Assembly: GCA_027488855.1 (NCBI GenBank)
Contig: JAIYAV010000289.1
Coordinates: forward strand, 1-64,000
From: Saprospiraceae bacterium
Lineage (GTDB): Bacteria; Bacteroidota; Bacteroidia; Chitinophagales; Saprospiraceae
Direction: 5' to 3'
Length of the DNA: 64,000 bases
Each line of letters starts with the position of its first letter. Positions within the stretch are counted from its first letter, which is position 1. Both the position numbers and the translations under genes were made by a program. Below, piece by piece: positions 14,458 through 48,389 of this stretch. The notes below the pieces were generated by a model. That model worked only from the letters and a program-made list of their open reading frames with translations. It ran no database searches and was not told the origin of the DNA.

Positions 14458-15183
14458 TCACACTGCATCAAATACCTTATCTTGCCCCCACCGTTCCGAC
14501 AATAGCTTAAAAAACGCAGGCCGATAACTCTGCCCAATCGGAATTTCGTGTTTGCCGATGCTCACCTGATGCCGCTCAACTACATTCAAATGCCGCAGCG
14601 AAATGATGTACGACTTATGGATTTTGCAGAAAAAATCGGGCAGAATTTCTTGCACATCCTGCATGTTTTGCCGACTGAGGATTTTGCGATCCTGGGTGTG
14701 AAAAACCACATAGTTTTCACTTTTTTCCAAAAACAAAACCTCTTCCCAGTTGAGGCGGTAGAGTTTGGGGCCACTTTTGATGAAAATTTCCTGGGCGGAA
14801 GGGTTGTTTTCGATGCTGGCATTGGCACTGACCGGAGCTTCCTTACAACGGCTGCAAGCCTGCAAAAAACGTTCAAAAGTGATCGGTTTGACCAGATAAT
14901 CCAGGGCTTCCAGCTCGTAACTGGCCACGGCGTATTCGGAGTAGGCCGTTGTAAAAATGACCTTGGGCTTGTCGGGCAAGGCGCGGTAAAACTCCACCCC
15001 AGAGATCTGAGGCATGTGAATGTCCAGCAGCAGCAAATCAACGGGATGATTTTGCAAAAAAGCCAGTGCTTCCAGTGGATTGCGGTAAGTACCAACACAT
15101 TTCAGCCAGGGCAAACGGTTGACGTAGTTGCTCAGCAGCTCAATGGCCTTGGGTTCATCGTCGATGATCAGTACTTCTTTCAT
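14458..15183 (-). CDS. LytTR-family response regulator
   Basis: REC domain (LIIDDEPKAIELL...LLLLDIHMPQISG) plus LytTR domain. Confidence 0.95.
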   Translation of the reverse strand: MKEVLIIDDEPKAIELLSNYVNRLPWLKCVGTYRNPLEALAFLQNHPVDLLLLDIHMPQISGVEFYRALPDKPKVIFTTAYSEYAVASYELEALDYLVKPITFERFLQACSRCKEAPVSANASIENNPSAQEIFIKSGPKLYRLNWEEVLFLEKSENYVVFHTQDRKILSRQNMQDVQEILPDFFCKIHKSYIISLRHLNVVERHQVSIGKHEIPIGQSYRPAFFKLLSERWGQDKVFDAV

Positions 15184-16208
15184 TCGTCCAGGCTAAGGCT
15201 AAGGTGGATGGAGAAATAATCTGCTTCGTCCACAATTCGCAGGGTGTGACGATCCGGGTACAGAAGGGCCAGGCGTTTGCGGACGTTTTCCAATCCAATG
15301 CCCTCTTGGTTCATGGAAGTAGACACCTGTTTGGTGTTTTTGGTGTTGAAATACAACATCCGACCTTCCACCGTCACGTCAATTTTGACCATCGACTGCT
15401 TGGTTACATCGATGCCGTGTTTGAGGGCATTTTCCACAAAGGGTATCAAAATAGCTGGGGCAATCATTTTGCCGTCCATCTCGCCTTGGGTATTGAGGCT
15501 GATGATCACATCGTCTTCGTCACTCAGGCGAAGGTGTTGAATTTCAATGAACCCGCCAATCTGCTCAACCTCACGGCGCAAGGGCACTTTTTCAGCATTG
15601 GTTTCATAAGTCAGGTAGCGCATCAAGCCAGCCAGGGAAGCGATGCTTTGCCCCAATTCCTCCTGGTTTTTTTCCACCGCCAGGGCGTACAAACTATTGA
15701 GGATATTGAATAAAAAATGCGGATTGACCTGAGCTTTGAGGAAAGCCAATTCTGTCGCCTGTTTCTCTGCGGCCAGTTTGCGCGTGGTCATTTCCGTTTC
15801 ATACCAGATGCGGGAAAAGCGAATCACCGCCGCGAAGAGCATGACGGAGAGGAACACGAAGAGGTTTTGTAGGTTGGGCAGGTAGTAAAAAAAGTAAAAA
15901 TTGTACCCCAGATCCGCCATAAACTCTGAGAAAACCCAAAACAACATCCAAGAGCGATCCAACAGCCAATGTACCCCAACCAACAAACTAAACAAGCCCC
16001 CATAAGCCAGGTAATTGCGTTGCTTGACCAGGTAACGGGGAATCAAAAAGTAGTTGTTGAAATAAGTGGCGGCCATGAGCAAAGGCATCCGAAACAAACT
16101 GGCCCAGGCGATATTCGAGAACTCGCAATCCATGTTCATCCACAAAATGGTTGTCCACAACCAGATGATGGCCCAAAAAAGGATGTGTTTGGCGATTCTC
16201 TTAATCAT
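15180..16208 (-). CDS. LytS-like sensor histidine kinase (His_kinase PF06580 type)
   Basis: QVNPHFLFNILNSLYAL, PAILIPFVENALKHG; overlaps the response regulator by 4 nt. Confidence 0.95.
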   Translation of the reverse strand: MIKRIAKHILFWAIIWLWTTILWMNMDCEFSNIAWASLFRMPLLMAATYFNNYFLIPRYLVKQRNYLAYGGLFSLLVGVHWLLDRSWMLFWVFSEFMADLGYNFYFFYYLPNLQNLFVFLSVMLFAAVIRFSRIWYETEMTTRKLAAEKQATELAFLKAQVNPHFLFNILNSLYALAVEKNQEELGQSIASLAGLMRYLTYETNAEKVPLRREVEQIGGFIEIQHLRLSDEDDVIISLNTQGEMDGKMIAPAILIPFVENALKHGIDVTKQSMVKIDVTVEGRMLYFNTKNTKQVSTSMNQEGIGLENVRKRLALLYPDRHTLRIVDEADYFSIHLSLSLDE

Positions 16209-16711: not shown

Positions 16712-18586
16712 TTATGAAGATCGGTATGCAATCGAGTGGTAGTTTTTGCTGTGTGGCCCCAGGAATACCCGGGCGTAAATCCGCATAATTGCCAAGCCAT
16801 CAATGATAAAACTCAGCGCCACAAAAGAGGCCAAAACCACCTGATTTTCGTGGATATGGCTAAAAATGAGATCCTCTCCGATAAAAGTAGGGGTGATTGG
16901 AAAGCCCGACAAGGCCAAACAACACACAAAAAACAGAAATGCCGCCACTGGATGTTCATAAACATGGCCATAAAAACGATCCATGTTAACAGTTTCCCGT
17001 TTTTTGAGCCAGTTCAGAATAATCCAACCTCCCACCCCTGCAAGCACCACGCCGCTGAGGTAAATATAGATTTCTAAAAAATCGAACTGCTCATTGTAAG
17101 AAGCAGCCAAAGCTATCCAGAAATGATTCATGATGACCAATACCCAACTTAGTCGGGCATGGAGGCGCTCAGAAAAAGCTTTTAACACCATAATCAATCC
17201 AAAAAAGCCGAAAGTTACTGGCAAATAAGCATGAGCAGTGGGTGAAATTAAACCTTCTGCGAAATGCAAAAAGTACAAGCCAATGAGGTAAGTAGGGATG
17301 AAAAACCAAAACAGGAGGGTGAGATTGAGAAAGTCCATTTTTTTACCCAATTGTTTCAATGGATTCCACAAATACTGGTACATGAATGCATCCAGATTCC
17401 ATTCCTTGATGCACAAAATGTACAGGGCGTATTCCGTTTTATTGGACAACAACTTGCCCTCCATCGACTTTTGCCGGGGGATAAATTTGTAAAACTGTTC
17501 TTTGATCAAATAACTCACGATGGAGGGTGAAACCAGCAGTTGGTAAGTGCGCAAAAACGCATTTCCGGCAAAGTGAACCAGCGCCAAAATGTGAAAACCT
17601 GCCGCCACTTCGATAAAAATCAGACCAATCTGGGCAATCGAAGCATAAGCCAACTGGCTTTTTACTGAAGATTGTACCCTGGCAACTCCAATGGCAATTA
17701 TGGTGGTGGACAAACCCAAAAGGGCAATCATGATGCGCACTGAAAGCTGATGCTCCCAAAAAGGGAAGGTGCGCAGCAACAGGAATACCCCCAAATGCAC
17801 CGACAAGGAGCCGTAAAAAATAGCACTGGAGGGCGTCGGCCCTTCCATGGCCCGTGGCAACCAAGAGGAAAAGGGCAACTGCGCCGATTTAGCCGCCGCA
17901 GAGATCAAAATCATCAGTGAAATGAATACCCCAATCCAGCTATGGGAGCTCAACTGATCACTAACCAGTTGAAAGTTGTCCAACTTTTCAAAGGTGATGC
18001 TTTCATGCCACAGGTGATGACTCATCCACATGGCCAGGATCAAGCCCACGTCGCCAATGCGGTAAATGGAAAAGATTTTCACCGCATTTTTCACTGGCAA
18101 ATAGCGGTCGCGGTAAAACGCAATCAATAAAAAAGAGGCAATCCCCAGTATTTCCCAACCTATAAACAAGGTTTCGAGATTGCCCGAGAAAATGGCAATG
18201 TTGTAACCTATATAGAAAAAAAGAATGGTGTTGAAATAGCGTTTGTAGCCTCTCTCGCGGTGCAGGTAATAACGGCTGTAAACGGTCACCAAAAAGGTTA
18301 AAAACGCCCCGGTAAGCAAATACACCGCAGTGATTTTATCGAACATCAGGGTGAAATCAAACTTGTAATGGTCGGTTTGTAGCAGGGTGATTTCTTTGGT
18401 TGTTTGCAACTTATGGTCTCCCAACAACCAAAAGATGGTGAATCCAAACGCAAACAACTCGTGTAAACCAATTGTGAGGAAGGCAATCCAGGACATGGTG
18501 TCTTCCTTCTTGTCTGGCACCAACAAACTGATGCCATAACCCAACAAGGGCAAGAGAATAAATATTGGCAATAATTGATCCATCAT
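16712..18586 (-). CDS. dabB: NuoL-like proton-conducting subunit DabB of the DAB inorganic carbon uptake system
   Basis: NuoL/MrpA-like family; directly adjacent to a DUF2309/DabA gene. Confidence 0.85.
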   Translation of the reverse strand: MMDQLLPIFILLPLLGYGISLLVPDKKEDTMSWIAFLTIGLHELFAFGFTIFWLLGDHKLQTTKEITLLQTDHYKFDFTLMFDKITAVYLLTGAFLTFLVTVYSRYYLHRERGYKRYFNTILFFYIGYNIAIFSGNLETLFIGWEILGIASFLLIAFYRDRYLPVKNAVKIFSIYRIGDVGLILAMWMSHHLWHESITFEKLDNFQLVSDQLSSHSWIGVFISLMILISAAAKSAQLPFSSWLPRAMEGPTPSSAIFYGSLSVHLGVFLLLRTFPFWEHQLSVRIMIALLGLSTTIIAIGVARVQSSVKSQLAYASIAQIGLIFIEVAAGFHILALVHFAGNAFLRTYQLLVSPSIVSYLIKEQFYKFIPRQKSMEGKLLSNKTEYALYILCIKEWNLDAFMYQYLWNPLKQLGKKMDFLNLTLLFWFFIPTYLIGLYFLHFAEGLISPTAHAYLPVTFGFFGLIMVLKAFSERLHARLSWVLVIMNHFWIALAASYNEQFDFLEIYIYLSGVVLAGVGGWIILNWLKKRETVNMDRFYGHVYEHPVAAFLFFVCCLALSGFPITPTFIGEDLIFSHIHENQVVLASFVALSFIIDGLAIMRIYARVFLGPHSKNYHSIAYRSS

Positions 18587-18587
18587 C

Positions 18588-21098
18588 TTAGTTTTCGGCG
18601 ATTAGATAAACCGGGAAATTCTCCGCGTGGGTTTCAAAAAGCGGCACCATGTTGTCAACAGTTTCCAGGGTCTTGTTGAGTGGCTCGTAGGGCACATATT
18701 TCCCATCTTTAAAGCGGGACATGGCTTTGGTTTCCGGGTGGACCACCACCAAATTCACCCATTCGTTGATGAACCACTCAAAGGTAGCAGCCGATCGTTG
18801 AATGCTGGTCAACACCACCTCGGGATAGTGTTCCACAATGATGAGCAGCCGCAAAGGGTCGTGTACTTCCGTCATTTGGGTGGGCAAACCTGGCCGCAAA
18901 TCCCCGTCGATCCCATTGGCTACACCAAATAGGCCCATTACGTTGTGTGGCAATTTGGAACCTGCCCCCAATTTTTGGTCATCTACCCGCGAGAAATAAT
19001 ACTCCAGGTTGATCCCGCCACATACCGGAGCGGCAGCATTCAGGATATTGGACAAATATTTGCCCTCAGGGTCAATTTGGTAATCGTAAGAATTGAGGAA
19101 GGAGCGGCGATCCAGAAACAAGCCGCGCGACAAATGCCTGCGCCCAACAATACAAAGGGCATTGGTGGCGTGGTTGAGTTCCGGGCGGGGCTCGAACAAG
19201 GATACCGAGCGCAACAACACCTTATCGTGTACTTTTAATGGTGTCTTGCTGGTATCAATGTAGTCAAAACGCCGGGATCTTTCCTTGGCATTGGAATCCA
19301 GAGCATTTTCAAAGATGACCTCGTTTTGGGTATGGCGCTCGAAATTGCTGGGCGAAAGGTCGTATTCGTCGTAAAAAACGATTTCATCCCGAGTAGTGTC
19401 GTGCAAACCACCTACAAATTGGGTCTCCCTGGGAATGTGCAAGCCACGCTCGGCCAGTTGAGCCCGTACCTCGAGGTGGTTGGCCATGTAGCTGAACACC
19501 CGTGCATTGACCGAACCCGCCCGACCACTACAAGCACCACAATCGTAAGCAGCGTAGTAGGGGTTGTTGAGGCTACTGGCACCGTGCCCGACGATGTAGA
19601 TCAGCGATGCAAAATCCTTGACCATACCAATGCTTCGCAACACGGCTTCGACCCGGTTCACCATTTCTTCTACCGTGTACCCCACTTGCAAGCCCTGATG
19701 TTTTTCGGGATGCTCACCACACTCGATGGTGAGTTTGGAGTACTTGTCCATGTGCTTCAGTGAAGAAGCCGTGGCCGGACTCATGGAGGGCCGGAAAATG
19801 TTCCAGAACAACTTTAAGGCTGCCCAAAAGCCCAAGGTTTGGGAAACCAGCCAGCCTCCAAGTGAGGAGTGGCTATGCTTATTGAAATACAGGTCGCGCT
19901 CCAAGCGGCTGCTGGATTCTTCCTCCCGAATCAGGTACTTGGGATTGACAGGAGCGGGGCAGGATTTGGTCAAAAACTTCCCGCCTTGTGGCTGAAAATA
20001 AAACTCGACCCCAAAAAAACCGGGCGTACCAAAAGTTTCACAATTCGGATCCATCGCTTCCAGGTAGCGGCGCAGTGAACATTCCCGGTCGTCGATGCAA
20101 AAGACGGCTTGAAAGCTCTTGTCCTTGATGACTTTGTGGCTGACCTGTTCCAACTGAATCCCCGCCAGAACCTGATCGAAATAACTCCATTCAAAAGCTT
20201 CCTGCCAAATGCTGAGCACTTCGTTTTGTTCAGAGTAAGGGATTTTGTCAAAAAGTGGCTGGGGGCGTTCTGTGAGTTTGCTGCCCAAGGGTTGCCAATC
20301 TTTTCCCTGCACAAAATCCATGGTATCAATTTCCAGCAACAATTCAAACACAATCAAGTCGTGTAAGCTGATCTTGCGGGTATCTAGCAGGGTTTGTGGT
20401 TGGTCTTCTACGGTTGAAATCATGCCCGACCAGCCTTGGTGGGCAAATTGTTGATCAAACAGGTATTGTTCAAACAAGGATTCATCCCCGACCAGGATAT
20501 GCAACAAATCAGTGATTTCGCACTTGGACCCCAGAAGCAATTCTTTGGCCCGTTTGCGGCGAAAAATGCTCACTTTGCTGTGCCGCTCCATGCGCCGGAT
20601 GGCTGATAAAAACCCTTTTTCGTTCACCGGAAATGGCCAGATGGAAATGCCTTGATCCATAAAGCTGCACAAGAGGCGGAATAAAAATGGATGCACCAGC
20701 GAATCCATGTCCAGATTGTAGACCCGCTTCCAGTGGTCGCGCAACTCCCCAATCCGAGGGTCGAATTCTTTGAGGTAATCGTTTTTGGTCAATTTCTGGA
20801 ACCACTCAGCGTGTTGCGCTTGCCCTTTGCGCTCCACAATCACCTTGTCCAATACCTGGCGATTGATGCGGCCCTTCTCGAACAAATCGCGAAACTCCTG
20901 CAGCGAAAGACTGACTTTATATCCAAAGATTGTGGCTGCTTTTTGGGTGCCTTCTTCAAACTTGAGGTGCTGGAAGGCGTGTAAGGTATTGTGGTGTACA
21001 AAGTCTTTCAGCGGAGCTTGAGCTGGAAGATAGTGTTTGAGCTCGTGTACAACTTGATGTGCATCAAACCCCTTCTGCAATTCAATTGGTTGACTCAT
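18588..21098 (-). CDS. dabA: DUF2309 / DabA inorganic carbon transporter subunit (beta-CA-like site)
   Basis: VFCIDDRECSLRRYLE (Cys/Asp) and VGHGASSLNNPYYAAYDCGACSG (His/Cys) match DabA zinc-site motifs; ATG at 21098. Confidence 0.92.
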   Translation of the reverse strand: MSQPIELQKGFDAHQVVHELKHYLPAQAPLKDFVHHNTLHAFQHLKFEEGTQKAATIFGYKVSLSLQEFRDLFEKGRINRQVLDKVIVERKGQAQHAEWFQKLTKNDYLKEFDPRIGELRDHWKRVYNLDMDSLVHPFLFRLLCSFMDQGISIWPFPVNEKGFLSAIRRMERHSKVSIFRRKRAKELLLGSKCEITDLLHILVGDESLFEQYLFDQQFAHQGWSGMISTVEDQPQTLLDTRKISLHDLIVFELLLEIDTMDFVQGKDWQPLGSKLTERPQPLFDKIPYSEQNEVLSIWQEAFEWSYFDQVLAGIQLEQVSHKVIKDKSFQAVFCIDDRECSLRRYLEAMDPNCETFGTPGFFGVEFYFQPQGGKFLTKSCPAPVNPKYLIREEESSSRLERDLYFNKHSHSSLGGWLVSQTLGFWAALKLFWNIFRPSMSPATASSLKHMDKYSKLTIECGEHPEKHQGLQVGYTVEEMVNRVEAVLRSIGMVKDFASLIYIVGHGASSLNNPYYAAYDCGACSGRAGSVNARVFSYMANHLEVRAQLAERGLHIPRETQFVGGLHDTTRDEIVFYDEYDLSPSNFERHTQNEVIFENALDSNAKERSRRFDYIDTSKTPLKVHDKVLLRSVSLFEPRPELNHATNALCIVGRRHLSRGLFLDRRSFLNSYDYQIDPEGKYLSNILNAAAPVCGGINLEYYFSRVDDQKLGAGSKLPHNVMGLFGVANGIDGDLRPGLPTQMTEVHDPLRLLIIVEHYPEVVLTSIQRSAATFEWFINEWVNLVVVHPETKAMSRFKDGKYVPYEPLNKTLETVDNMVPLFETHAENFPVYLIAEN

Positions 21099-21347
21099 CG
21101 CGGATGATTTTCTTAAAGTAGTTGTGGTGCTATCTGTCGGGTCAAAGGGCAGAAGCACTGCTCTTAGTGTTGATCCGAAACAAAGGTATTGGTCTAAAAC
21201 CGCAGGAGACAAATTTGAAGTGTGGAAAAAGGGTCGAAGCGGGCAAATTCGGGGGGCGAAGTTGGGGGAGGGGACAATACAAATCTCGCATACCTCACCT
21301 TTACTATTGCGTTACCCCAATCTTTTGCCAATACCGTTTAACTAGAG

Positions 21348-35838: not shown

Positions 35839-36138
35839 GGAGGTTGAGTAACATGAGTCATACCGAATTTTTGAAAAGTCAAAATCGGGAATACACCTAA
35901 TCGCGGAGCGATTGAATTTAGAATAGCCCCGGTCGTCCGGGGTAAATAATTTGGTCAAATTGGCGGCAACCACGGCAGTGGTTGAACTCAATTGAGCAAA
36001 AAGTTCAACCGCATCCGCGGTTGCGGAACCTTTTGCTACCAAAATTACCCCGGACGACCGGGGCTATTCTAAATTCAACCGCATCCGCGGTTTGTTATCC
36101 CAAAAAAATCGGGATGACTCATGTTACTCAACCTTCCT
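35837..36138. repeat. composite inverted repeat: outer GTTGAGTAACATGAGTCATMCCGAATTTTT arms, inner perfect 32-bp arms (GAATTTAGAATAGCCCCGGTCGTCCGGGGTAA)
   Basis: Outer 35837-35872 / 36104-36138; inner 35914-35945 / 36045-36076. Confidence 0.92.
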
Positions 36139-36163
36139 CAACCTCCATAAACCATATGTACCA

Positions 36164-36934
36164 ATGAAAATCCTGATCGTAGAAGACGAGCCCAAGACCG
36201 CCCAGGACTTGAGCGAAACCCTCCAGGAAATCGATTCTTCCATTACCATTCTGGGCATTACCGACTCGATTGAAGGTACGCTCAATTTTTTGGCTTACCC
36301 GCCTGCACCAGATCTCATCTTTTTAGACATCCAGTTGGCCGATGGCCTGAGTTTTGATATTTTTAAGGAGACAACTATACTTTGTCCGGTGGTGTTTTGC
36401 ACTGCTTATGACGAATACGCGCTTCAGGCCTTTCAAACCAATGGGGTAGCCTATGTACTCAAACCTTTCAGTACCGCAGATGTCCGTTTGGCCCTGGACA
36501 AAGTAAAATCACTGGCGAGTTTTTATCGTTCGGAGGCTCCGGATTTGCGCGCCTTTGCCGAAGCAATGGATACTTTGCACAGCAGCGGGGGGCTCAAAAG
36601 TAATTTTTTGGTATCCTTTAGAGGCAGCTTCATCCCCATTCCCACCAAAGAAATCGCCTTGTTTTACATTTTGGGTGAAGATGTTTGTCTGCAAACCTTC
36701 AAAGGCAATACTTACCTGGTACCACATTCACTCGAAGAAATTGAACGTATGGTCGGCCACCAACAATTCTACCGAGCCAATCGCCAGCACCTCATTAATT
36801 TTGAACTGATTGAATCTATTGAGCAGGATTTTGCCCGCAAGTTGAAAATCAAACCCAAAGTCAAATGCCACGATCAAATCACAGTGAGCAAGGCAAAGGC
36901 CAGTGAGTTTTTGCAATGGATGAATACGAGGTGA
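36164..36934 (+). CDS. LytTR-family response regulator
   Basis: MKILIVEDEPKTAQDLSE, REC plus LytTR domains. Confidence 0.94.
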   Translation: MKILIVEDEPKTAQDLSETLQEIDSSITILGITDSIEGTLNFLAYPPAPDLIFLDIQLADGLSFDIFKETTILCPVVFCTAYDEYALQAFQTNGVAYVLKPFSTADVRLALDKVKSLASFYRSEAPDLRAFAEAMDTLHSSGGLKSNFLVSFRGSFIPIPTKEIALFYILGEDVCLQTFKGNTYLVPHSLEEIERMVGHQQFYRANRQHLINFELIESIEQDFARKLKIKPKVKCHDQITVSKAKASEFLQWMNTR

Positions 36935-36937
36935 AAA

Positions 36938-37020
36938 TGAAAAATGAAAAACTAAAAATGAAAACCACTAACATGTGTTTCATTTTTCATTTTTCATTTT
37001 TCATTTTTCATTTTTCATTT
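36938..37020. repeat. heptad-periodic inverted repeat (TGAAAAA)n / (TTTTTCA)n between convergent RR and HK genes
   Basis: Direct reading; overlaps the 3' end of the kinase gene. Confidence 0.9.
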
Positions 37021-38021
37021 AAAATCGGTAGCCACACTTCAAAGTATTTTTCTCCCTTCAAAACTTTCACTTCACGATTTCCAAGGAGTTGGTAGCGTTG
37101 TCGGATGTTCTCCAGGCCAAGGCCAGTATGGTGCTCAACCGTACGTTTGGGTTGGAGGTTGTTGCGGATGATGATATTGGCATCGTCATTATAGATTTCA
37201 ACCAGCAGCGCTTTCCCTACCCCAATCATGTTGTGTTTTATCGCATTTTCAATGAGGAGTTGGAAGGTATTGGGAGGGGTGTAACTCTCATACACTTCTG
37301 GCGACAGAGATACTTCCAGTTTAAAATTGTCTTCAAAGCGGGCGTGAATCAAACTGGCGTAGGAGCGGGCAATCGACAGATCTTCACGCAAGGACACTTT
37401 TTCCTTCTGGTTGTTTTGCAGCAAATAGCGGTACACATCGGCCAACTGAACAATGAAGTCCTGGGCAGTGGGGTTACTGCCCTTTACCAGCGTTTTTAAG
37501 GTATTGAGTGCATTGAATAAAAAATGCGGATTGACTTGTTGGCGCAACAGATCCATTTGCGCCTTGGCACTCATTTCCATCAGTTGCGCATTTTTTACTT
37601 GTACTTGCTGGATTTGGTATACTGAGCGCACCGCGTAAAAGAGGATTTGTAAAATGATGTTGATGAGGATGCCCCGGAAAATGAAAAAGACCAGTGGTGC
37701 CTTTTCTTCTTTGATCGTCTCATGAACGATTATTTCGACGACTAAAACCAAAGAGACGCCTACAAAAAGGCTAATGGCACTTTGGACAAATAGCCTTAGT
37801 GCTTCAGATTTGAAAGAGTTGCGGAATTGCTCTTCGCGTCGATCCAGCGCAAAGTTGAATTGCCAGATCAAAATCGAATAAGTACAAAGCACCAAAAAGT
37901 CGATGGATGCTTGCAGTACGTCCTTGTATTCTCCATCAACCGCCCGGTTCAACATGAAGAAAAAGGTAATGGCCAGGGTAGCCCAAATGGCAATTTTTCG
38001 AAAGTAGCGTTGAAAAACCAA
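37008..38021 (-). CDS. LytS-like sensor histidine kinase
   Basis: QQVNPHFLFNALNTLKTL, TFQLLIENAIKHN. Confidence 0.94.
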   Translation of the reverse strand: MVFQRYFRKIAIWATLAITFFFMLNRAVDGEYKDVLQASIDFLVLCTYSILIWQFNFALDRREEQFRNSFKSEALRLFVQSAISLFVGVSLVLVVEIIVHETIKEEKAPLVFFIFRGILINIILQILFYAVRSVYQIQQVQVKNAQLMEMSAKAQMDLLRQQVNPHFLFNALNTLKTLVKGSNPTAQDFIVQLADVYRYLLQNNQKEKVSLREDLSIARSYASLIHARFEDNFKLEVSLSPEVYESYTPPNTFQLLIENAIKHNMIGVGKALLVEIYNDDANIIIRNNLQPKRTVEHHTGLGLENIRQRYQLLGNREVKVLKGEKYFEVWLPILNEK

Positions 38022-38189
38022 TTCCCGATTTTTTTCTCAAAAGTAATCAAAAATAGCAGATGCAAGTCTTCCCTCTTGGGGTCAGTTGCCGCAAAACGGG
38101 CCGAAGCTCCCCCCAAGCGGGCAAAGTCGCCGCTGAAATGCCAGCCACATTCAAGAGATTTGCCTTGCTGATTGAGTAAAAAACCAAGC

Positions 38190-40169
38190 ATGACAAATCA
38201 ATCCATTTTACTAGGTTCCATGTTGCTGTCTCCACTGCTATTTCTGCTGCGGGGGCAACCGCGTTACTGGGCTGCCATACTGCTGCACCTGACGGTGATC
38301 GTAGCAAGTTCCAGCGCGGCCATAAGCGTATTTCAGGGGCAAGCCTGGGGGGTCGATACAGGTATTTACCTGCTGGGTGTACCCATTCGATTGGAATTGG
38401 ATGCGCTGAGTGCCTTTTTTGTAATGGTCATCAACCTCACCATGTTGACAGGTGCCTGGTATTCCGGGGGCTACCTCAAACCTTACGAATCCAGCAAAAG
38501 TGCCATTGAGTTGTCTTTTCACCGCTTTACTTATCTCTGGTTGCACCTGGCGATGATTGTGGTCGTTATGGTGCCGCAGGGAACGCCATTTTTATTTGCC
38601 TGGGAACTCATGACTTTGACTGCCTTTATCCTGGTCGCTTTTGAATGGGAAAAACCCGAATCGGTACATGCGGCGCTCAATTACCTGGTACAAATGCACG
38701 TTGGCTTTGTCTTTATCCTGATCGGCTTGTTTTTGATCCAATACCAGGGCGGGGGCAGTTTTAGTTTCAGCGGATTGGCAAAGACACAAATGCCAGTGCA
38801 GGCTTTTTTACTGCTTTTGGTTGGTTTTGCTTTTAAAGCCGGGTTTATGCCTTTCCACACCTGGTTGCCACACGCCCACCCTGCGGCACCTTCCCATGTA
38901 TCAGGGGTGATGTCGGGCGTCATCATCAAAATGGGGATTTACGGCATTTTGCGCTGTGTGATCTATTTGCCCAAGGAACATTGGATGACCATGGGTGCAA
39001 CCATTCTGATTGTATCGATCATCTCTGGCGTGATGGGTGTGATTTATGCGATCATGCAACACGACGTAAAAAAACTTCTGGCCTACCATAGTATTGAAAA
39101 CATTGGCATCATCGGCATCGGCATTGGGCTGGGCATGATGGGGTATGCACTGGGGCATCCGGTATTGGCAACTTTGGCTTTTGCCGGGGGCATTTTGCAC
39201 ATCCTGAACCATTCCTTGTTCAAATCACTGCTGTTTTACTCCGCAGGTTCGGTGTATCAACAAACCCATACCCGCTATGTGGAAAAACTGGGCGGTTTGA
39301 TCAAAAAAATGCCGTATACCGCATTCTTATTCTTGCTAGGCGCCCTGGCCATTTGTGGTTTGCCTCCTTTTAATGGTTTTATCTCCGAGTTTTTGATCTA
39401 CTACGGGGCTTTTAGCCACATTGGTGCAGGCGACATGAACGAGGCCTTGATCCTGCTGACTTGTATCCTGAGTTTGGCCTTGATTGGGGGCTTGGCTATT
39501 TTTTGCTTCACCAAGGTATTCAGTATCGTATTTCTGGGCTCAAGTCGCAGCTCTGCAACAACGGGAGCCCAGGAAGTAAGCCTGAGCATGTTGTTGCCAC
39601 AAGGTTTGATTGGTTTGGTCATTTTGGCGATTGGTTTGGTGCCTGGTTTCTTTGTACACTACATTGAGCAGGTGGCAGGGCTTTATCTTCCAGATGCCAG
39701 TTTGCCACATGCTTATTTGGATACGCTGCGCTATGTAGGCATTGCTTCGGGGATTTTCATCCTTCTGCTGGTTGTCCTGATTTTGTTGCGGAGCATCCAA
39801 CAGCGGCGGGTAGAAGTGGCTTATGGCCCAACCTGGGGTTGTGGTTACACGGGGGCTGATCCTGCATTACACCAATATACGGCTACCTCTTATGCCGATA
39901 ATTTTGTCCAATTGGCGGAACCTATTTTGGGCGTAGAAACCCACTATACCCCTTTTGCTGAAACGGAAATTTTCCCTCATACCCACCATTTTGAACGGCA
40001 TCAGCACGATCCAATGGAGGCCAATTTGGTGGAAAAACCGGGCAATGCCCTCTTGTACTACCTGCAAAAATCCGCTGTATTTCAATCCGGCAAATTGCAA
40101 CACTACCTCTGGTACGGATTGCTCTTTCTGATGGTGGTAGGCGCGATGTCTTACCTCAAGATACTTTAA
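38190..40169 (+). CDS. HyfB-like (NuoL/antiporter-like) membrane subunit of a Hyf-type complex
   Basis: FAWELMTLTAF, PFHTWLPHAHPAAPSHVSGVMSGVIIKMGIYGILR. Confidence 0.92.
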   Translation: MTNQSILLGSMLLSPLLFLLRGQPRYWAAILLHLTVIVASSSAAISVFQGQAWGVDTGIYLLGVPIRLELDALSAFFVMVINLTMLTGAWYSGGYLKPYESSKSAIELSFHRFTYLWLHLAMIVVVMVPQGTPFLFAWELMTLTAFILVAFEWEKPESVHAALNYLVQMHVGFVFILIGLFLIQYQGGGSFSFSGLAKTQMPVQAFLLLLVGFAFKAGFMPFHTWLPHAHPAAPSHVSGVMSGVIIKMGIYGILRCVIYLPKEHWMTMGATILIVSIISGVMGVIYAIMQHDVKKLLAYHSIENIGIIGIGIGLGMMGYALGHPVLATLAFAGGILHILNHSLFKSLLFYSAGSVYQQTHTRYVEKLGGLIKKMPYTAFLFLLGALAICGLPPFNGFISEFLIYYGAFSHIGAGDMNEALILLTCILSLALIGGLAIFCFTKVFSIVFLGSSRSSATTGAQEVSLSMLLPQGLIGLVILAIGLVPGFFVHYIEQVAGLYLPDASLPHAYLDTLRYVGIASGIFILLLVVLILLRSIQQRRVEVAYGPTWGCGYTGADPALHQYTATSYADNFVQLAEPILGVETHYTPFAETEIFPHTHHFERHQHDPMEANLVEKPGNALLYYLQKSAVFQSGKLQHYLWYGLLFLMVVGAMSYLKIL

Positions 40170-40197
40170 CCCTTTTGATGACCCAAAAGAAAGAAAA

Positions 40198-41109
40198 ATG
40201 TCAATTCTACTCTACTTACTTTATACCTGCTGCGCCCTATTGATTCCGGGGGTAATTGCCATCACCAAGGCCAAGCTTAGTGGTCGCAAAGGGCCTGGAT
40301 TGTGGCAGCCGATCTACGATATTTTGCGCCTTTTGAGCAAGGGTAGCGTATACAGTACAACTACTAGTTATTTGTTTCAATATGCTCCCCTGGTGAATTT
40401 TGCAGCGACTTTATTGGCCTTGGCCTTTATCCCGCTGGGAGACATTCCTGGCCTAATGCATTTTCAGGGCGACTTCGTCTTTTTTGCCTACCTACTGGGT
40501 TTAGGTAAGTTTTTGTTGATCCTGAATGCCATGGATACAGGCAGTGGTTTTGAAGGCATGGGTGCCAATCGTGAAGCGCTGTATTCTATGTTGGTTGAAC
40601 CAGCCTTTTTTATCGTCATGGGCTCAATGGCTTTGCTGAGTGGACACAATTCTTTTGTCGACATTTTTAGTCAATTTCAGGATACCAGTCAATACGCCAT
40701 TTTATTGGGTTTTCTGGGCGCCTACATCCTGGGACAAATTGCCATGGTGGAAAACAGTCGCCTCCCAGTGGACGATCCACGGACGCACCTGGAGTTGACG
40801 ATGGTTCACGAAGTAATGGTACTCGACAATAGTGGTTTTGATTTTGGAATCATCATGATCACCAATAGCCTCAAGTTTGGCATTTATGCTGGACTACTGG
40901 CCAATTTGATGGTGCCAATATGGTTGCCACTGGGTTTTCGGCTGGGTTTTGCCCTTTTGATTTCCTTGTTGTTTGGGGTGATGGTGGGCTTATTGGAGTC
41001 CTTTCGGGCACGCAACAAAATGGCGCGTAACCCCCAATTCATCCTCACGCTGTCGGCGGTTTCCTTGCTGTTCTTTTTTACCGTAATGATCATCGCCAAC
41101 CGGATTTAA
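40198..41109 (+). CDS. HyfC-like (NuoH-like) membrane subunit
   Basis: GRKGPGLWQPIYDILRLLSKG, GANREALYS, ENSRLPVDDPRTHLELTMVHE. Confidence 0.94.
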   Translation: MSILLYLLYTCCALLIPGVIAITKAKLSGRKGPGLWQPIYDILRLLSKGSVYSTTTSYLFQYAPLVNFAATLLALAFIPLGDIPGLMHFQGDFVFFAYLLGLGKFLLILNAMDTGSGFEGMGANREALYSMLVEPAFFIVMGSMALLSGHNSFVDIFSQFQDTSQYAILLGFLGAYILGQIAMVENSRLPVDDPRTHLELTMVHEVMVLDNSGFDFGIIMITNSLKFGIYAGLLANLMVPIWLPLGFRLGFALLISLLFGVMVGLLESFRARNKMARNPQFILTLSAVSLLFFFTVMIIANRI

Positions 41110-41132
41110 TCACCCTAAATAAACACAGACCT

Positions 41133-41762
41133 ATGCTTTTGCTACTGGCTTTTGGACTCACTTTGGTTTATATGGGGATTGCCGACCGGGTACGGCGGCT
41201 AATCGACATGTTGATTTTGCAGGGTGTATTGTTGTTTGGGATGGCCATTGTGCAGTTGCACCATATTGAAGTACTCAATTTGGTCTTCATTCTGCTGGAA
41301 ACCCTGGTGGTAAAAGCGGTGGTATTGCCACTTTTTTTGCTGCGGGTAAAAAAGAAAAACGAAATATCCCGGGTCAGCACCACTGCGGTATCGGGCTTTA
41401 GTAAAGGGTTGTGGATGGCAGTCATCATTGCTTTCAGCTTTACCGCCGGGCATTTGTTGCACGAGTCTTCGGATGCCATTCAGGCCAAGTATTTTTCGGT
41501 AGGCATTGCAGCCATTCTTACAGGCATCATGCTGATTGTCAAACACGACAAGGTGTTGACTCACTTGATGGGTTACCTGGTGCTGGAAAATGGAATATTC
41601 TTACTTACGCTGGCGGTGGGCGGCGAAATGCCAATCATTGTCAACGGGGCAATTTTGCTGGATATCGTACTGGCGGTGTTGGTGCTAGGTTTGATCATCA
41701 ACCGCTTGAGTACCAATTTTGGTGGTACAGCCTTGAGCCATCTTTCTGAATTGAAGGATTGA
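41133..41762 (+). CDS. HyfE-like (NuoK-like) membrane subunit
   Basis: GYLVLENGIFLLTLAVGGEMPIIVNGAILLDIVLAVLVLGLIINRL. Confidence 0.88.
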   Translation: MLLLLAFGLTLVYMGIADRVRRLIDMLILQGVLLFGMAIVQLHHIEVLNLVFILLETLVVKAVVLPLFLLRVKKKNEISRVSTTAVSGFSKGLWMAVIIAFSFTAGHLLHESSDAIQAKYFSVGIAAILTGIMLIVKHDKVLTHLMGYLVLENGIFLLTLAVGGEMPIIVNGAILLDIVLAVLVLGLIINRLSTNFGGTALSHLSELKD

Positions 41763-41918
41763 TTGAGTGGAGGGAATTTCATTCTGTCGACTCAATCAAG
41801 AGCTTAATTGGGGTTTTCGGGCGTTGGAGAGAAGCGCCCGAACTATGGGTTGGGGGAACTCGATTCCCCCACCTTTTAAAAAGAACAAGCATGTTTATTT
41901 TTAAGAACAAGCATATTT
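41759..41918 (+). promoter_or_regulatory. three consecutive hairpins plus a 16-bp direct repeat between hyfE-like and hyfF-like genes
   Basis: TTGATTGAGT/ACTCAATCAA, TTCGGGCG/CGCCCGAA, TGGGGGAA/TTCCCCCA; AAGAACAAGCATRTTT at 41881 and 41903. Confidence 0.65.
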
Positions 41919-41944
41919 AACCACGAGTCAAAAACGGCCATGTT

Positions 41945-43375
41945 ATGATTGCACTGTATTTATTCATCGCTTTGTGCTGTAGTGCCCTGGCTTTTGGGGT
42001 AAAACAACGCTGGGCAAGCGTACTGGCTGTATTGGCTTTTTTGAGCACTCAGTTGGGGCTCAATTATTACGCCTGGGAGCATCTCAACCAGAACGATTCT
42101 ATCTATTTTAGTTTCGATGCATTGGGTTTTATTTTTACTTCGGTATTGAGTATCATTAGTTTGCCCGTTTTTTACAACAGCTATCGCATGCTGGAGCACC
42201 AAACGGGGGAATGGCCAGACAAAAGAAAGGCCAGTCTTTACACCGCTGCCCTGATTGTACTCGTTGCCGTATTGACTTCCGTTTATTTTGCCGATAACTA
42301 TGGCATTTTGTGGGTGCTGATAGAAGTTTCAACCATTGCGCTGGCGGCACTGATCTATTTCTACCGCACCAAACTGGCCTTGGAGGCTACCTGGAAATAC
42401 ATTTTCCTCAGTTCTATAGGGATTTCACTGGTCTTGATCAGCCTTTTGTTTTTAAATGTAGCCATGCACCGCGACTCGGGTGCAAGTTTGCACATCAGCG
42501 CAGTGCTGCAAAATGCCAAAAACCTGGATCCCCTTTGGTTGAAAGTAGCTTTTGCCTTGATGGTAACCGGGTTGAGCACCAAGATGGGGGTTTTTCCCTT
42601 TCATACGGTGGGTATCGATGCCACGATGGTGGCCCCCCATCCGGTCAATGTACTCATGTCGACTGCCCTCAAAAATGCAGGTTTCGTTGCCGTATTTCGC
42701 CTGTATCAGGCAGTCATGCAAACATCGATTGCCGATTGGGCCAGTCATGTATTGTTGCTGGTCGGATTAATTTCTATTGCCCTCGCTGCGACCCAAACTC
42801 AACGTACCCAAAACCTCAATCGGATGTTGGGCTACTCGGGCTTGGAGCACGTAGGATTGGCCTTGGTGGCACTCTCTTTAGGGCCTATCGGGTTTTATGC
42901 GGCGGTTTTCCACCTCGTGTTGCACTCCTTCGCTAAGGCGGGCCTTTTCCTACAAATGGGGCAAGTCAACCAGATTTACGATCACCACTTTCCTGAAAAA
43001 AATGCGGCCTATTTCCATAGCAACCCCATTGGGTCTTTGGTAGTCTTGTTGGGGTATATCGGGATAATGGCACTGCCACCTTCCGGTTTGTTCAGTACAG
43101 AGTTGATGATTTTTTCTCAACTCGCTGCGCAAAAACAGTGGTGGGTACTGGTTTTAGTCCTCTTCTTGATGACCATTGTGCTCTTGACGCTGGGGCGACA
43201 GGTGATGAACATGCTCTACGGGATCAAAGCCCAAATCAAAACGGATGTGGCAGTGGTCAAGGTAGACGCACTGGAAATAATTGCCCAAGTCACCATACTG
43301 GGATTGATGATTTATATCGGATTCAATCCTCCGATTTTTTTGGTTGACCTTTTGAATCAAGCTTGCGTACGCTAA
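41945..43375 (+). CDS. HyfF-like (NuoN/L-like) membrane subunit
   Basis: LWVLIEVSTIALAALIYFYRT, VAPHPVNVLMSTALKNAGFVAVFRLYQ, MLGYSGLEHVGL. Confidence 0.92.
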   Translation: MIALYLFIALCCSALAFGVKQRWASVLAVLAFLSTQLGLNYYAWEHLNQNDSIYFSFDALGFIFTSVLSIISLPVFYNSYRMLEHQTGEWPDKRKASLYTAALIVLVAVLTSVYFADNYGILWVLIEVSTIALAALIYFYRTKLALEATWKYIFLSSIGISLVLISLLFLNVAMHRDSGASLHISAVLQNAKNLDPLWLKVAFALMVTGLSTKMGVFPFHTVGIDATMVAPHPVNVLMSTALKNAGFVAVFRLYQAVMQTSIADWASHVLLLVGLISIALAATQTQRTQNLNRMLGYSGLEHVGLALVALSLGPIGFYAAVFHLVLHSFAKAGLFLQMGQVNQIYDHHFPEKNAAYFHSNPIGSLVVLLGYIGIMALPPSGLFSTELMIFSQLAAQKQWWVLVLVLFLMTIVLLTLGRQVMNMLYGIKAQIKTDVAVVKVDALEIIAQVTILGLMIYIGFNPPIFLVDLLNQACVR

Positions 43376-43386
43376 ACATCGGATCT

Positions 43387-44925
43387 ATGGTACTGACAAC
43401 AGACAAAAAAAGCATCAGCATACACAACACGGAAGCCGTTTCGATAGCGGAGATTCCGGTGTTGGCTTACGCCGACTTCAAAGCACAGGTTTTAACATGG
43501 TTGCATTTTGAAAAATGTCATTGTGTAGCCTATTTCGCCTATCCATTTGCAGGCGGATTAAAATTCATCGCTGCGATTGCCGATGATTCCAATGCGCAGG
43601 TTTATTTGCTTTCACATGAGCAAATGGGGACTCAGGCCATCGAGTTGGACGCCCTTAGTGCTTCGGCAATGCCGATGCACATTTACGAGCGAGAAATTGC
43701 CGAAAACTATGGGGTCGTTTTTAACAACCATCCCTGGCCCAAGCCGGTGCGCTTTGCGTTCAACCGCTTCAACCAGGAGATGCAAGTCAACGACTATCCC
43801 TTTTATAAAATTGAGAGTGATCAACTCCACGAAGTAGGGGTTGGGCCTATTCACGCCGGCGTAATTGAACCGGGGCATTTCCGGTTTTTGTGCAATGGTG
43901 AGACGGTGTTGCACCTCGAAATTCAGTTGGGCTGGCAGCACCGTGGGGTGGAGCAATTGTATTTGGATAAAAAAACGCTATTGCAGCGCGCCATTCTTTC
44001 TGAAAACATTGCTGGTGATACGGCAGTAGGACACGCTACTGCATCTGCCTTGCTTACTGAAAGCCTAACGGGTGCCAATACTCAAAATACCATGCTCGAT
44101 ATTGAGCGAACCATTGCCCTGGAATGGGAACGCATCGCCATGGGCATTTTTGATTTGTCGAACCTCAATGTCGGGATTGCTTACCAATTGGCCAATTCAG
44201 TGTTTGGGGCACTGCGGACACCAGTCATCAATTTTTTCCAATCCTGGTGTGGCAACCGTTTTGGTAAAAGCCTGATCCGCCCGGGAGGCACCCATTATCC
44301 GCTGACCGATGAATTGGTCGCAAAAATGGTGGCCATCATGGATGATTTTGAGACCCGTTTTGATGCCATGGCCGAAAAAACTTTCCATTTGCCCTCTGTA
44401 CTGAACCGTTTTGACGGCATTGGCAAAGTGACCAAAAAACAAATGACACTGATCGGTGCAGTTGGCCAAGCGGCAAAGGCGGCAGGGCTCATTCGGGATA
44501 CCCGCTATACCCACCCGGTAATGGCCTACGAAACCCTCAAAGTATTGCCCGAAATGCAAAACAGCGGGGATGTATTGGCGCGTTTCACCCTACGCAGACT
44601 GGAGATCAAACAATCCATCAGGATGATTCGCCACTTGTTGGACATGCGGCAATACGTGGATCAGGAGTCTGGTTCGCCATTGAAACAAAGTGAATACAGC
44701 ATGAAACCCAATGCCTTCAGTTTGGCACTAGTAGAAGGCTGGAGGGGCGAAATCTGCCATTGCGCGATCACTGATGAAAATGGGAATTTGCAACATTACA
44801 AGGTCAAGGATCCTTCCTTCCACAATTGGTTGGCACTGGCACTGAGCTTGCGGAATCTGGAAATTTCCGATTTCCCCATCAACAACAAGAGTTATAATTT
44901 ATCCTACTGTGGATTTGATTTGTAA
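43387..44925 (+). CDS. HyfG-like (fused NuoC-NuoD-like) large subunit lacking Ni-ligand cysteines
   Basis: LGWQHRGVEQLY; L1 position reads ENIAGDTAVGH and L2 position DPSFHN (no Cys). Confidence 0.9.
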   Translation: MVLTTDKKSISIHNTEAVSIAEIPVLAYADFKAQVLTWLHFEKCHCVAYFAYPFAGGLKFIAAIADDSNAQVYLLSHEQMGTQAIELDALSASAMPMHIYEREIAENYGVVFNNHPWPKPVRFAFNRFNQEMQVNDYPFYKIESDQLHEVGVGPIHAGVIEPGHFRFLCNGETVLHLEIQLGWQHRGVEQLYLDKKTLLQRAILSENIAGDTAVGHATASALLTESLTGANTQNTMLDIERTIALEWERIAMGIFDLSNLNVGIAYQLANSVFGALRTPVINFFQSWCGNRFGKSLIRPGGTHYPLTDELVAKMVAIMDDFETRFDAMAEKTFHLPSVLNRFDGIGKVTKKQMTLIGAVGQAAKAAGLIRDTRYTHPVMAYETLKVLPEMQNSGDVLARFTLRRLEIKQSIRMIRHLLDMRQYVDQESGSPLKQSEYSMKPNAFSLALVEGWRGEICHCAITDENGNLQHYKVKDPSFHNWLALALSLRNLEISDFPINNKSYNLSYCGFDL

Positions 44926-44958
44926 GCCCAACCCAAAACTGGAAAAACAGGAAAAAAC

Positions 44959-45720
44959 ATGATCATTGAAGAAATAAACATCCTGCGCCAACATGGCTGG
45001 CAATACATTCCGGATCCACTAAAGGCCGAAGTACCGGCACCTTTTCGAGGCCGTCCGGAGATACAAGTGGGCATGAGTTTGGACATTCAGCAAGAATTGT
45101 TCGATTTGTGCCCCGTGGAAGCGATAGGGATGAATCCCCTGTCGATTGATTTGGGTAAATGTTACTTCTGTGGCGAATGTGCGATGGCGCACCCACAAGC
45201 CATTCGTTTTACCAGTGACCATCGGCTGGCCAGCAATGTTCGCCAACGGCTCATTGTAGCAGCGGGCGATACCCGTGGAATAGAACTGGATCCTGACAAA
45301 ATCCGCAAAGAGATTACCGCTATGTTCGGCCGTTCGCTCAAGTTGCGCCAGATTTCTGCCGCCGGAGAGAACAGCCACGAAGCAGAACTAAACGCCTGTG
45401 GCAATGTCAACTTTGACATGGGCCGTTATGGCATCGAATTTGTGGCTTCGCCACGCCATGCGGATGGCATCGTAATCACGGGCCCCATTTCGCAAAACAT
45501 GGCCGAAGCTACCGAGATATGCTACGAAGCAGTACCCGACCCAAAAATTGTCGTACTCGTTGGCTCTGACGCCATTAGTGGCGGCATCTTTGCGGGGAGT
45601 GGTGCCTTGAATCGCAGCTTTTTGGACAAGGTATCTATCGATCTTTACGTACCAGGGAATCCCCCGCATCCCTTAACCTTCATCAATGGCATTTTGGCGT
45701 TGAGCCGGAGCAGGTCATAA
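44959..45720 (+). CDS. HyfH-HyfI-like fusion (ferredoxin-like plus NuoB-like) with substituted cluster ligands
   Basis: LGKCYFCGECAMAHP; FVASPRHADGIVITGPISQNMAEA; VGSDAISGG; VPGNPPHP. Confidence 0.9.
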   Translation: MIIEEINILRQHGWQYIPDPLKAEVPAPFRGRPEIQVGMSLDIQQELFDLCPVEAIGMNPLSIDLGKCYFCGECAMAHPQAIRFTSDHRLASNVRQRLIVAAGDTRGIELDPDKIRKEITAMFGRSLKLRQISAAGENSHEAELNACGNVNFDMGRYGIEFVASPRHADGIVITGPISQNMAEATEICYEAVPDPKIVVLVGSDAISGGIFAGSGALNRSFLDKVSIDLYVPGNPPHPLTFINGILALSRSRS

Positions 45721-45880
45721 CCTGTTTCTGCTCAACATAATAAAACCCAGCATCTGGATTTGACCTTTTGCTGATTCGCCCAATTAAGAACAACTGGTTA
45801 CCCATCCACTGCGCAGGAATCTCTCCCTGTTGCGGCGAGGAGACTGTTTTTTCAAAAAAGGACTCAAACAAATATTCATT

Positions 45881-47503
45881 ATGGAACAACAAACCATTAT
45901 TCGCCCAAAAACTGGTTGGGCTGGATTCAAAGAAAACTGGTCAAAAGACCTGTTATCGGGATTTTTGGTGTCCCTGATTGCGTTACCACTGAGTTTAGGT
46001 ATCGCCGGAGCAAGTAACTTCCCTCCCATCATGGGTGTTATGACAGCCATAGTGGGCGGTATAGTTGTCGCTTTTTTTGCAGGCTCTGAATTGACCATTA
46101 AAGGCCCGGCTGCCGGGTTGATCGTTATTGTTGCTGGTGCCGTTGAAGAGCTTGGCAAAGGAGACAATGACCTCGGCTGGAAACTGGCACTAGGTGTAGT
46201 GGTTGTAGCAGGGGCCATTCAGGTGTTGTTTGGCATCTTTAAGGTAGCTAAACTGGCCGACTTTTTCCCACTTTCAGCGGTTCACGGGATGTTGGCTGCC
46301 ATTGGCATCATCATCATGTCCAAACAAATTCACCTGGCGGTAGGTATTTCTCCTGCTGAATTGAAGGGCAAGGAACCACTGGAACTCTTGGCTATGGTAC
46401 CCAATAGTTTATACCACATGGAGTACCACGTTGCCATCATCGGCCTAGTCAGTTTGGTGATCCTGTTTGGCTGGCAATTCATCAAAGTGAAAGCTTTGAA
46501 AAAATTTCCACCTGCTCTATTGGTTTTGATTGCAGGGGTGTTGATGGGCTTGTATTTCAATTTGTCGGCCCCTAGTTATGCCGACATCAAACCATTGGTG
46601 AATCCCGGCGATTTCAAATTGGCTTTTAATGCCAGTTTTGCCGGATTGAGCAGCGATTTGTTGCCGATTTTCCTGAAATACGTCCTGATGTTTACCCTGG
46701 TAGGTAGCCTTGAGTCTTTGTTGACGGGTAAAGCGATCGACCTGCTCGATCCGTACCAACGGAAGGCCAACTTGAGCAAAGACCTTACCGCAGTAGGGAT
46801 TGGCAACATGGTAGCTGGCTTTTTGGGAGGCTTACCAATGATTTCGGAGGTTGCGCGTAGTTCCGCCAATATCAGCAACGGTGGGCGGACCCGGTGGGCT
46901 AATTTGTTTCAGGGCGTATCACTTTTGGTATTTGTAGTGGTACTGACTCCACTGATTAAAATGGTGCCTGTCGCTTCCCTGGCAGCAATGCTGATCTTTG
47001 TGGGCTTCCGTTTGGCTGCTCCAAAAGAATTTGTACATGTATACCACATTGGCAAAGAACAGTTACTCATTTTTATTGTAACCGTTATTGCAACCATATC
47101 AACGGATTTATTGATTGGTGTAGGCACAGGAATCTTACTCAAATTGATCCTGCAATTGATTTCTGGAGTACCCCTTCGTTACATTTTCCGTCAGCCCATC
47201 AAAATGTCCATTTCTGAAGAGGAATACCTCCTGGAAGTGAGTGGTGCTGCGACCTTCAGCAATTTGCTCAATATCAAAAAACATTTGGATAAAGTGCCTG
47301 CTGGCTCCAATGTGCGCATCGATTTGGAAAAATCTCGTTATGTAGACCACACCGTGCTCGAAAACTTGCACAACTACAAACGCGAGCACGAGTTGGGGGG
47401 CGGTAATTTTCAGGTGACGGGTATTGAAGGGCACAAACCGCTGTCTGATCACCCATTGGCAGCACGTCGGAGCAAGAACGACGACATGATTCAGCGCTCT
47501 TAA
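45881..47503 (+). CDS. SulP-family inorganic anion transporter with STAS domain
   Basis: LSGFLVSLIALPLSLGIAGASNFPPIMGVMTAIVGGIVVAFFAGSELTIKGPAAGL; C-terminal STAS region. Confidence 0.95.
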   Translation: MEQQTIIRPKTGWAGFKENWSKDLLSGFLVSLIALPLSLGIAGASNFPPIMGVMTAIVGGIVVAFFAGSELTIKGPAAGLIVIVAGAVEELGKGDNDLGWKLALGVVVVAGAIQVLFGIFKVAKLADFFPLSAVHGMLAAIGIIIMSKQIHLAVGISPAELKGKEPLELLAMVPNSLYHMEYHVAIIGLVSLVILFGWQFIKVKALKKFPPALLVLIAGVLMGLYFNLSAPSYADIKPLVNPGDFKLAFNASFAGLSSDLLPIFLKYVLMFTLVGSLESLLTGKAIDLLDPYQRKANLSKDLTAVGIGNMVAGFLGGLPMISEVARSSANISNGGRTRWANLFQGVSLLVFVVVLTPLIKMVPVASLAAMLIFVGFRLAAPKEFVHVYHIGKEQLLIFIVTVIATISTDLLIGVGTGILLKLILQLISGVPLRYIFRQPIKMSISEEEYLLEVSGAATFSNLLNIKKHLDKVPAGSNVRIDLEKSRYVDHTVLENLHNYKREHELGGGNFQVTGIEGHKPLSDHPLAARRSKNDDMIQRS

Positions 47504-47604
47504 TCTTTGCTTATTTACCGATTTAGAAGGAAGTCCTTCAAAGCGTTTCATACCATTCTTTTTTAAATCTGTTTATTTGTAAAATTGTCTTTTCATATTG
47601 GTCA

Positions 47605-47629
47605 GGGTCGGCGTATCAAACGCCGACCC
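47605..47629. repeat. perfect hairpin GGGTCGGCGT-ATCAA-ACGCCGACCC
   Basis: 10-bp arms, in the leader of the DUF2490 gene. Confidence 0.7.
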
Positions 47630-47654
47630 ACTTTGCACCCAAAAAAATCACTCC

Positions 47655-48389
47655 GTGAAAAAATTCGTTTTGATTACCTTATCGGTCTTCCTGGCCTACT
47701 GGGCTGCTGCTCAAGGCGGAAGAATAATTGCCCCCTCAGGTCACGCGTGGTACATGGAAAATGGCACCATCAAACTCAGTGAAAAATGGCTGCTGTTTCA
47801 TGACGTACAATTTCGGCGAGCCGATATTTTACCCGAAGCCCAACAGTTGTTGCTTCGTGCTGGCATTGGATACAACCTCTCCAAGTCCATCCAAATCATG
47901 GGAGGATATTGTTTTGTACAAACCTATCCTTATGGCGATTATCCGGTGAAACATGAGTTTCCAGAAAATCGAATCTGGGAGCAATTGATCATCAGAGCAC
48001 CCATCGGACGGGCTACTTTAATCAATCGTTACCGACTGGAACAGCGCTATCTTGGCAGTAGTGCAACTGGGAGCCTCGCCAATCCTCGTTTTGAAAACCG
48101 GATGCGCTACTTCGGACGGATGAACATGCCTTTGCAAAAGGGAGATGATTATAAATTATATGGCTTCGCATACGATGAGATTTTTATCAATTTCGGCAAA
48201 AACGTGGGCGTGAACATCTATGACCAAAACCGTATTGCCGCCGGTTTGGGCTGGAAGCTCGATAAAAAACTCAGCCTGGAATTGGGTTATATGAACCAGA
48301 TGGTGCAACAACGCGCCCTGCAGCCCAACGGAAAATCAGTAATAGAAAACAACCATACCTTGATTGCTTCCCTGGTGAGTAATTTTTAG
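47655..48389 (+). CDS. DUF2490-like outer membrane protein
   Basis: GTG start with signal peptide VKKFVLITLSVFLAYWAAAQG; ENRIWEQLIIRAPIGRATLINRYRLEQRY. Confidence 0.82.
   Translation: MKKFVLITLSVFLAYWAAAQGGRIIAPSGHAWYMENGTIKLSEKWLLFHDVQFRRADILPEAQQLLLRAGIGYNLSKSIQIMGGYCFVQTYPYGDYPVKHEFPENRIWEQLIIRAPIGRATLINRYRLEQRYLGSSATGSLANPRFENRMRYFGRMNMPLQKGDDYKLYGFAYDEIFINFGKNVGVNIYDQNRIAAGLGWKLDKKLSLELGYMNQMVQQRALQPNGKSVIENNHTLIASLVSNF

Follow-up and report, generated by a model that had tools for sequence, protein, structure and literature searches.

An Ehr complex from a Bacteroidia clade that lacks the Ni ligands of the large subunit and the proximal-cluster ligands of the small subunit

We analyzed a 64,000-nucleotide stretch of DNA from a Saprospiraceae bacterium (contig JAIYAV010000289.1), hereafter the window, and found that its six-gene cluster at 38172-45720 is an energy-converting-hydrogenase-related (Ehr) complex of a Bacteroidia branch. 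The large subunit has no Ni ligands, and the small subunit has lost the cysteines of the proximal (N2-type) [4Fe-4S] cluster. In terms of the open-access literature, Ehr without CxxC motifs is known, and the loss of the proximal ligands is apparently undescribed. Judging from sequence, the best reading, to which we assign a probability of about 0.5, is that the complex is a redox-disconnected member of the complex I family that would translocate ions.

Results

The cluster encodes an Ehr complex

The cluster has a HyfB-C-E-F-G-I architecture, and all six reading frames are open. The genes are as follows.

38172-40169, + strand: HyfB/NuoL-M-like antiporter subunit (665 aa; E145, K222, K253, K300, H347, K351 and E406 kept)
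40198-41109, + strand: HyfC/NuoH-like membrane subunit (303 aa; E134, D192, E199 and R272 kept)
41133-41762, + strand: HyfE-like membrane subunit (209 aa; E152 and D177 kept)
41945-43375, + strand: HyfF/NuoM-N-like antiporter subunit (476 aa; E127, K151, K213 and E386 kept)
43363-44925, + strand: HyfG/EhrL-like large subunit (520 aa from TTG; NuoC-like and NuoD-like parts)
44959-45720, + strand: HyfI/EhrS-like small subunit with a fused N-terminal ferredoxin domain (253 aa)

As in Ehr, a group 4-related large subunit without CxxC motifs is encoded together with small, NuoH-like, HyfE-like and antiporter-like subunits. The marks of a group 4 [NiFe] hydrogenase, namely the L1 and L2 CxxC motifs, HypD in the genome and a proximal [4Fe-4S] cluster, were not found. 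The NADH module NuoEFG was likewise absent from the cluster and its flanks, and the canonical NuoD- and NuoB-type genes of the genome lie on another contig (C250). Many Bacteroidia Ehr clusters (eleven loci) carry two tandem HyfB copies; the window has one. Ehr large subunits without CxxC motifs have been reported (PMC6349859, PMC10284858, PMC10432482, PMC7304191, PMC4378227). Because the cluster is Ehr, the loss of the Ni ligands from the large subunit alone is already known.

The large subunit has no Ni ligands

The product of 43363-44925, for which ATG at 43387 is an alternative start, matched PF00346 (NuoC-NuoD type, HyfG/HycE-like), and its closest solved relative was HycE of formate hydrogenlyase (7z0s_E, E 5.8e-68). 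The same chain was the best PDB match (TM 0.84) of a model of the single subunit (pLDDT 89.5). Three motifs bear on the Ni site.

44002-44034, + strand: L1 position, ENIAGDTAVGH (both Cys replaced, by Ala and Thr; His kept)
44809-44826, + strand: DPSFHN, a conserved Ehr motif that by alignment lies upstream of L2 and is not L2
44896-44922, + strand: true L2 position, NLSYCGFDL (Ser and Gly in place of the two Cys)

An earlier note on this DNA, made from the sequence alone, had stated that the HyfG-like protein contains no Ni-binding cysteines, and alignment with E. coli HyfG confirmed that 0 of the 4 Ni ligands is present. At L1, where ENIAGDTAVGH aligned to RVCGICGFAH, the coordinates and replacements given in the note were exact. 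The note was also right that both L2 cysteines are lost, but it had placed L2 at DPSFHN, which stands opposite AATYAN of E. coli HyfG and TPSFAH of NuoCD. Instead, SLDPCYSCTDR of E. coli HyfG pairs with the C-terminal SYNLSYCGFDL, in which the first Cys is Ser and the second is Gly; the one Cys present here is one position off the ligand column. Canonical CxxC pairs elsewhere in the protein, which the note had named as contrary evidence, were not found; the 520 residues contain CxC pairs only. The HypD maturation protein was not found in the 8.4 Mb genome, and this, with the missing ligands, supports the view that the protein cannot be a NiFe hydrogenase as written.

Among the 86 tabulated large subunits, the second L1 position was never Cys (0/86), the first L1 Cys survived in 9, and DPSx(H/N)N was near-universal, indicating that the Cys loss is not due to chance. 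No Ehr large subunit in the sample has the Ni ligand set. The note had also proposed to look in the cavity for the quinone-site His and Tyr of NuoD. The result was negative: His38 and Tyr87 (Thermus numbering) are absent from the large subunit, and the aligned residues are Ile and Gly.

The small subunit has lost the proximal-cluster ligands

The more unusual feature lies in the small subunit, which the earlier note did not mention. This protein joins a ferredoxin domain to a NuoB-like domain, and its single-subunit model (pLDDT 94.4) superposed on MbhJ (6cfw_J) with an rmsd of 1.7 over 126 columns. Its ligand positions are as follows.

45109-45180, + strand: ligands C51, C68, C71 and C74 of the retained [4Fe-4S] site (kept in 87/87 distinct small subunits)
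45367-45378, + strand: proximal-cluster positions 1 and 2, E137 and H140 for Cys
45568-45570, + strand: proximal-cluster position 3, D204 for Cys
45658-45660, + strand: proximal-cluster position 4, N234 for Cys

In the 87 distinct small subunits, the proximal ligands were all four Cys in 38, lost in 48 and partial in one. No more than one of the four Cys, often that of position 2, remains at a lost site. The combination Asp-Cys-Asp-Asn occurred in 31 of the 48 lost cases, and the window has Glu/His/Asp/Asn. Position 2 varied among Cys, Asn, Ala, Val, Tyr, His and Asp, and position 4 was Ala in Alistipes-type members. The partial case is an Opitutaceae small subunit with Cys-Ala-Cys-Trp (L105:11481-12251), in which two of the four ligands were lost independently. 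A separate phylum sample of 396 genomes yielded 14 further Ehr, all outside the window's class; 13 had all four proximal Cys and one had Asp-Cys-Asp-Asn. The four Cys are kept in nearly all sampled Ehr small subunits outside the Bacteroidia clade. A retained proximal cluster does not form part of the published Ehr definition in those parts of the literature that were available. No description of a small subunit without proximal ligands was found in the open-access literature, which does not include the founding Ehr papers; within this literature, the loss is apparently undescribed.

The replacements are conserved and polar (Asp 49/52, Asp or Glu 51/52, Asn 43/52) rather than those of random decay, and the neighboring ferredoxin cluster is strictly kept. 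Both features would suit the main rival reading, in which the complex is still a redox enzyme, the Asp/Cys/Asp/Asn site holds a different metal center (mononuclear iron, zinc or an unusual cluster) and electrons reach the HyfG cavity. However, position 2 varies freely, position 4 can be Ala as noted above, and the window itself departs from the common constellation. In addition, the terminal site is gone and no redox partner recurs. We consider a redox enzyme of this kind unlikely.

The loss is a single change on the trees

The Ehr cluster is patchy in Bacteroidia: it was found in 10 other genomes of the 247 in the class and in one other of the 199 in the window's order, and in none of the window's genus or family. 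Ehr at 37-42% large-subunit identity also occurs in Desulfobacterota, Planctomycetota, Spirochaetes, Ignavibacteria, Gastranaerophilales and others; this wide relative set consists of the best 80 matches, which favors the window's relatives.

Two maximum-likelihood trees were built in quick mode for both subunits after removal of the ligand columns. The lost state was one change on both trees, and the lost clade had SH-aLRT values of 95 and 97. Ehr of G179 (a genome of the window's class) and G526, with all four Cys, was placed just outside the lost clade, and E. coli HyfI also has all four proximal Cys, indicating that the direction of change was loss. Lost-type Ehr from G453 (L143; another class) and L037 (labelled Phycisphaerae) fell inside the lost clade, suggesting horizontal transfer or binning error.

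The large and small Ehr subunits were unlinked at L033/L126 (genome G179) and L062/L120 (genome G441); L062 is a lone HyfG between peroxiredoxin and rimP. Loss of the small subunit from some genomes was considered and rejected, as HyfI was present elsewhere in each genome tested. That is, where HyfI does not lie beside HyfG it is found at another locus, suggesting that the small subunit is still needed.

The antiporter-channel residues are kept and the large and small subunits are constrained

The charged ion-channel residues expected of an Mrp-like antiporter are intact. Within the lost clade, the antiporter Glu, Lys and His residues of HyfB and HyfF and residues E134, E199 and R272 of HyfC are invariant; D192 of HyfC and the HyfE residues E152 and D177 show little or no variation. 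In HyfC, all sampled Ehr have His at the position of NuoH E218 and Asp at that of E228, and most members of the lost clade have Lys/Arg at that of E216. When lost and kept complexes were scanned for differing residues, three of the four ligand positions came up and few others (HyfB 0, HyfC 0, HyfF 3, HyfE 1, HyfG 4 and HyfI 1 more). The change hardly extends beyond the cluster site.

In close pairs within the lost clade where dS was measurable, dN/dS was approximately 0.04-0.11 for both subunits; the large- and small-subunit genes are under strong purifying selection. A decaying remnant of a hydrogenase operon might be suspected from the loss of both catalytic sites, the patchy distribution in the class and the unlinked HyfG and HyfI of some genomes. 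However, the six open frames, the low dN/dS, the conserved substitutions, the invariant membrane residues and the presence of HyfI elsewhere in each tested genome without HyfI beside HyfG contradict decay, and we find this explanation hardly credible.

Flanking genes do not reveal a recurrent partner

A transporter gene follows the cluster directly.

45830-47503, + strand: SulP-family anion transporter, directly downstream of Ehr and possibly co-transcribed

The SulP gene and then a gene for a DUF2490 protein follow the operon (45830-48389). Elsewhere, a SulP ortholog directly adjacent to Ehr was found only in L034, the sister of the window on the tree; a degenerate beta-carbonic-anhydrase-like gene (Pro_CA E 1.1e-4) comes after it there. 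L091 and L100 have a less similar SulP, separated from Ehr by several genes. Given this distribution, the idea that SulP is a core component of Ehr was rejected. DabB (Proton_antipo_M) and DabA (PF10070, E 4.8e-224), an inorganic-carbon uptake pair, are encoded on the minus strand at 16715-21212, 17 kb upstream of Ehr. A functional link between DAB and Ehr was rejected: DabA was present in 2 of 11 Ehr-bearing genomes versus 55 of 236 other genomes of the class (Fisher p = 1.0). A LytTR regulator and a histidine kinase adjoin DabA/DabB (14461-16208). Another LytTR response regulator and histidine kinase precede the Ehr operon (36092-38021), and a similar pair lies beside the L086 Ehr cluster (E 9e-45 and 2.8e-32).

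The SulP gene of the window and L034, the carbonic-anhydrase-like gene of the latter and the DabA/DabB pair could indicate vectorial chemistry without redox, in which a polar HyfG cavity would handle CO2/bicarbonate and couple it to protons, as in DAB or NDH-1MS. However, no SulP homologue was found beside the other sampled Bacteroidia Ehr clusters, DabA is not associated with Ehr in the class, and no Zn-binding constellation was recognized. The carbon-uptake link is weak, and we regard CO2/bicarbonate chemistry as very improbable.

Among 105 flanking proteins, no recurrent electron donor or partner was found, the commonest Pfam domains occurring in 4, and neither formate dehydrogenase nor NuoEF was recurrent. 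These results also bear on a conventional Ehr, in the role suggested for other Ehr: an oxidoreductase linked to formate or ferredoxin. The gene content and membrane arm are those of Ehr with intact proximal clusters, and Geobacter Ehr rises on formate (PMC7894505). However, the relay is broken at the proximal cluster in the lost clade, and the neighbors that such a role would lead one to look for do not recur. We consider a conventional role quite improbable for this clade.

Discussion

In the related hydrogenases and complex I, the ferredoxin cluster hands electrons to the proximal cluster, which passes them on to the NiFe site or quinone; in the known geometry of complex I, the distance that remains without the proximal cluster is too great for effective electron tunnelling. 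In the lost clade, with neither the last relay nor the terminal site left, electrons would be unable to reach the old active-site cavity. With both lost, a redox-independent ion translocator appears to be the most likely function. Such a complex may be, for instance, a cation/proton antiporter or a gated proton conductor that, like Mrp, uses ion gradients as its driving force. HyfG and HyfI would then act as a cap with a structural or regulatory role, and the [4Fe-4S] cluster that remains may be a structural element or sense redox state. The interface may be held together by the Asp/Cys/Asp/Asn constellation, acting as a polar or a metal site. A tentative scenario, which we place slightly short of even odds, is that once the NiFe site had been lost, a single step severed the whole lost clade from electron transfer, and that its complexes nevertheless still translocate ions.

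Several observations stand against a redox-free complex. The main counterpoint is the strict retention of the four ferredoxin-cluster Cys, which would not be expected without a redox role. The rest of the lost-clade complex hardly differs from Ehr with a proximal cluster, for which the literature proposes redox coupling (PMC6349859), and complex I-type channels normally require a driving reaction. The changes in the NuoH E-channel of HyfC (E218 to His, E228 to Asp and E216 to Lys/Arg) also count against it.

If a redox-disconnected ion translocator is the correct reading, the lost clade would be a natural example of a complex I-type membrane arm and Q-module running without redox chemistry. 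For complex I, it has long been asked how redox chemistry in the Q-module can power ion pumping at a distance of tens of angstroms. The lost clade kept the pump and the Q-module fold and dropped the last relay, whereas close sisters kept the relay. This amounts to a natural separation-of-function experiment, in which one and the same complex, with its proximal cluster or lacking it, could be compared in transport assays and structures.

Comparison with known systems

The complex resembles the Ehr complexes reportedly described by Coppi (2005) and Marreiros et al. (2013), and said to include Geobacter GSU0739-0745, in its gene set, the absence of CxxC from the large subunit, the small subunit and the Mrp-like membrane subunits. 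Unlike the window's clade, nearly all Ehr outside the Bacteroidia clade keep the four proximal Cys. Formate hydrogenlyase and hydrogenase-4 (HycE, HyfG; PDB 7z0s) provide the best sequence and fold match and share the fused NuoC-NuoD architecture. However, the window's complex has neither their Ni ligands nor their proximal cluster, and its ferredoxin domain, reduced to one cluster site, forms a fusion with the small subunit. Respiratory complex I (NuoB/NuoD/NuoH/NuoL-N) has a homologous Q-module and membrane arm with conserved antiporter Lys/Glu, whereas the window's complex has no N-module and no N2 cluster, and has Ile/Gly in place of NuoD His38/Tyr87. Mrp cation/proton antiporters share the NuoL/M-like subunits and are not known to have NuoH-, NuoD- or NuoB-like subunits. 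Mrp antiporters offer a precedent for gradient-driven transport without redox chemistry (PMC7419157, PMC9568556).
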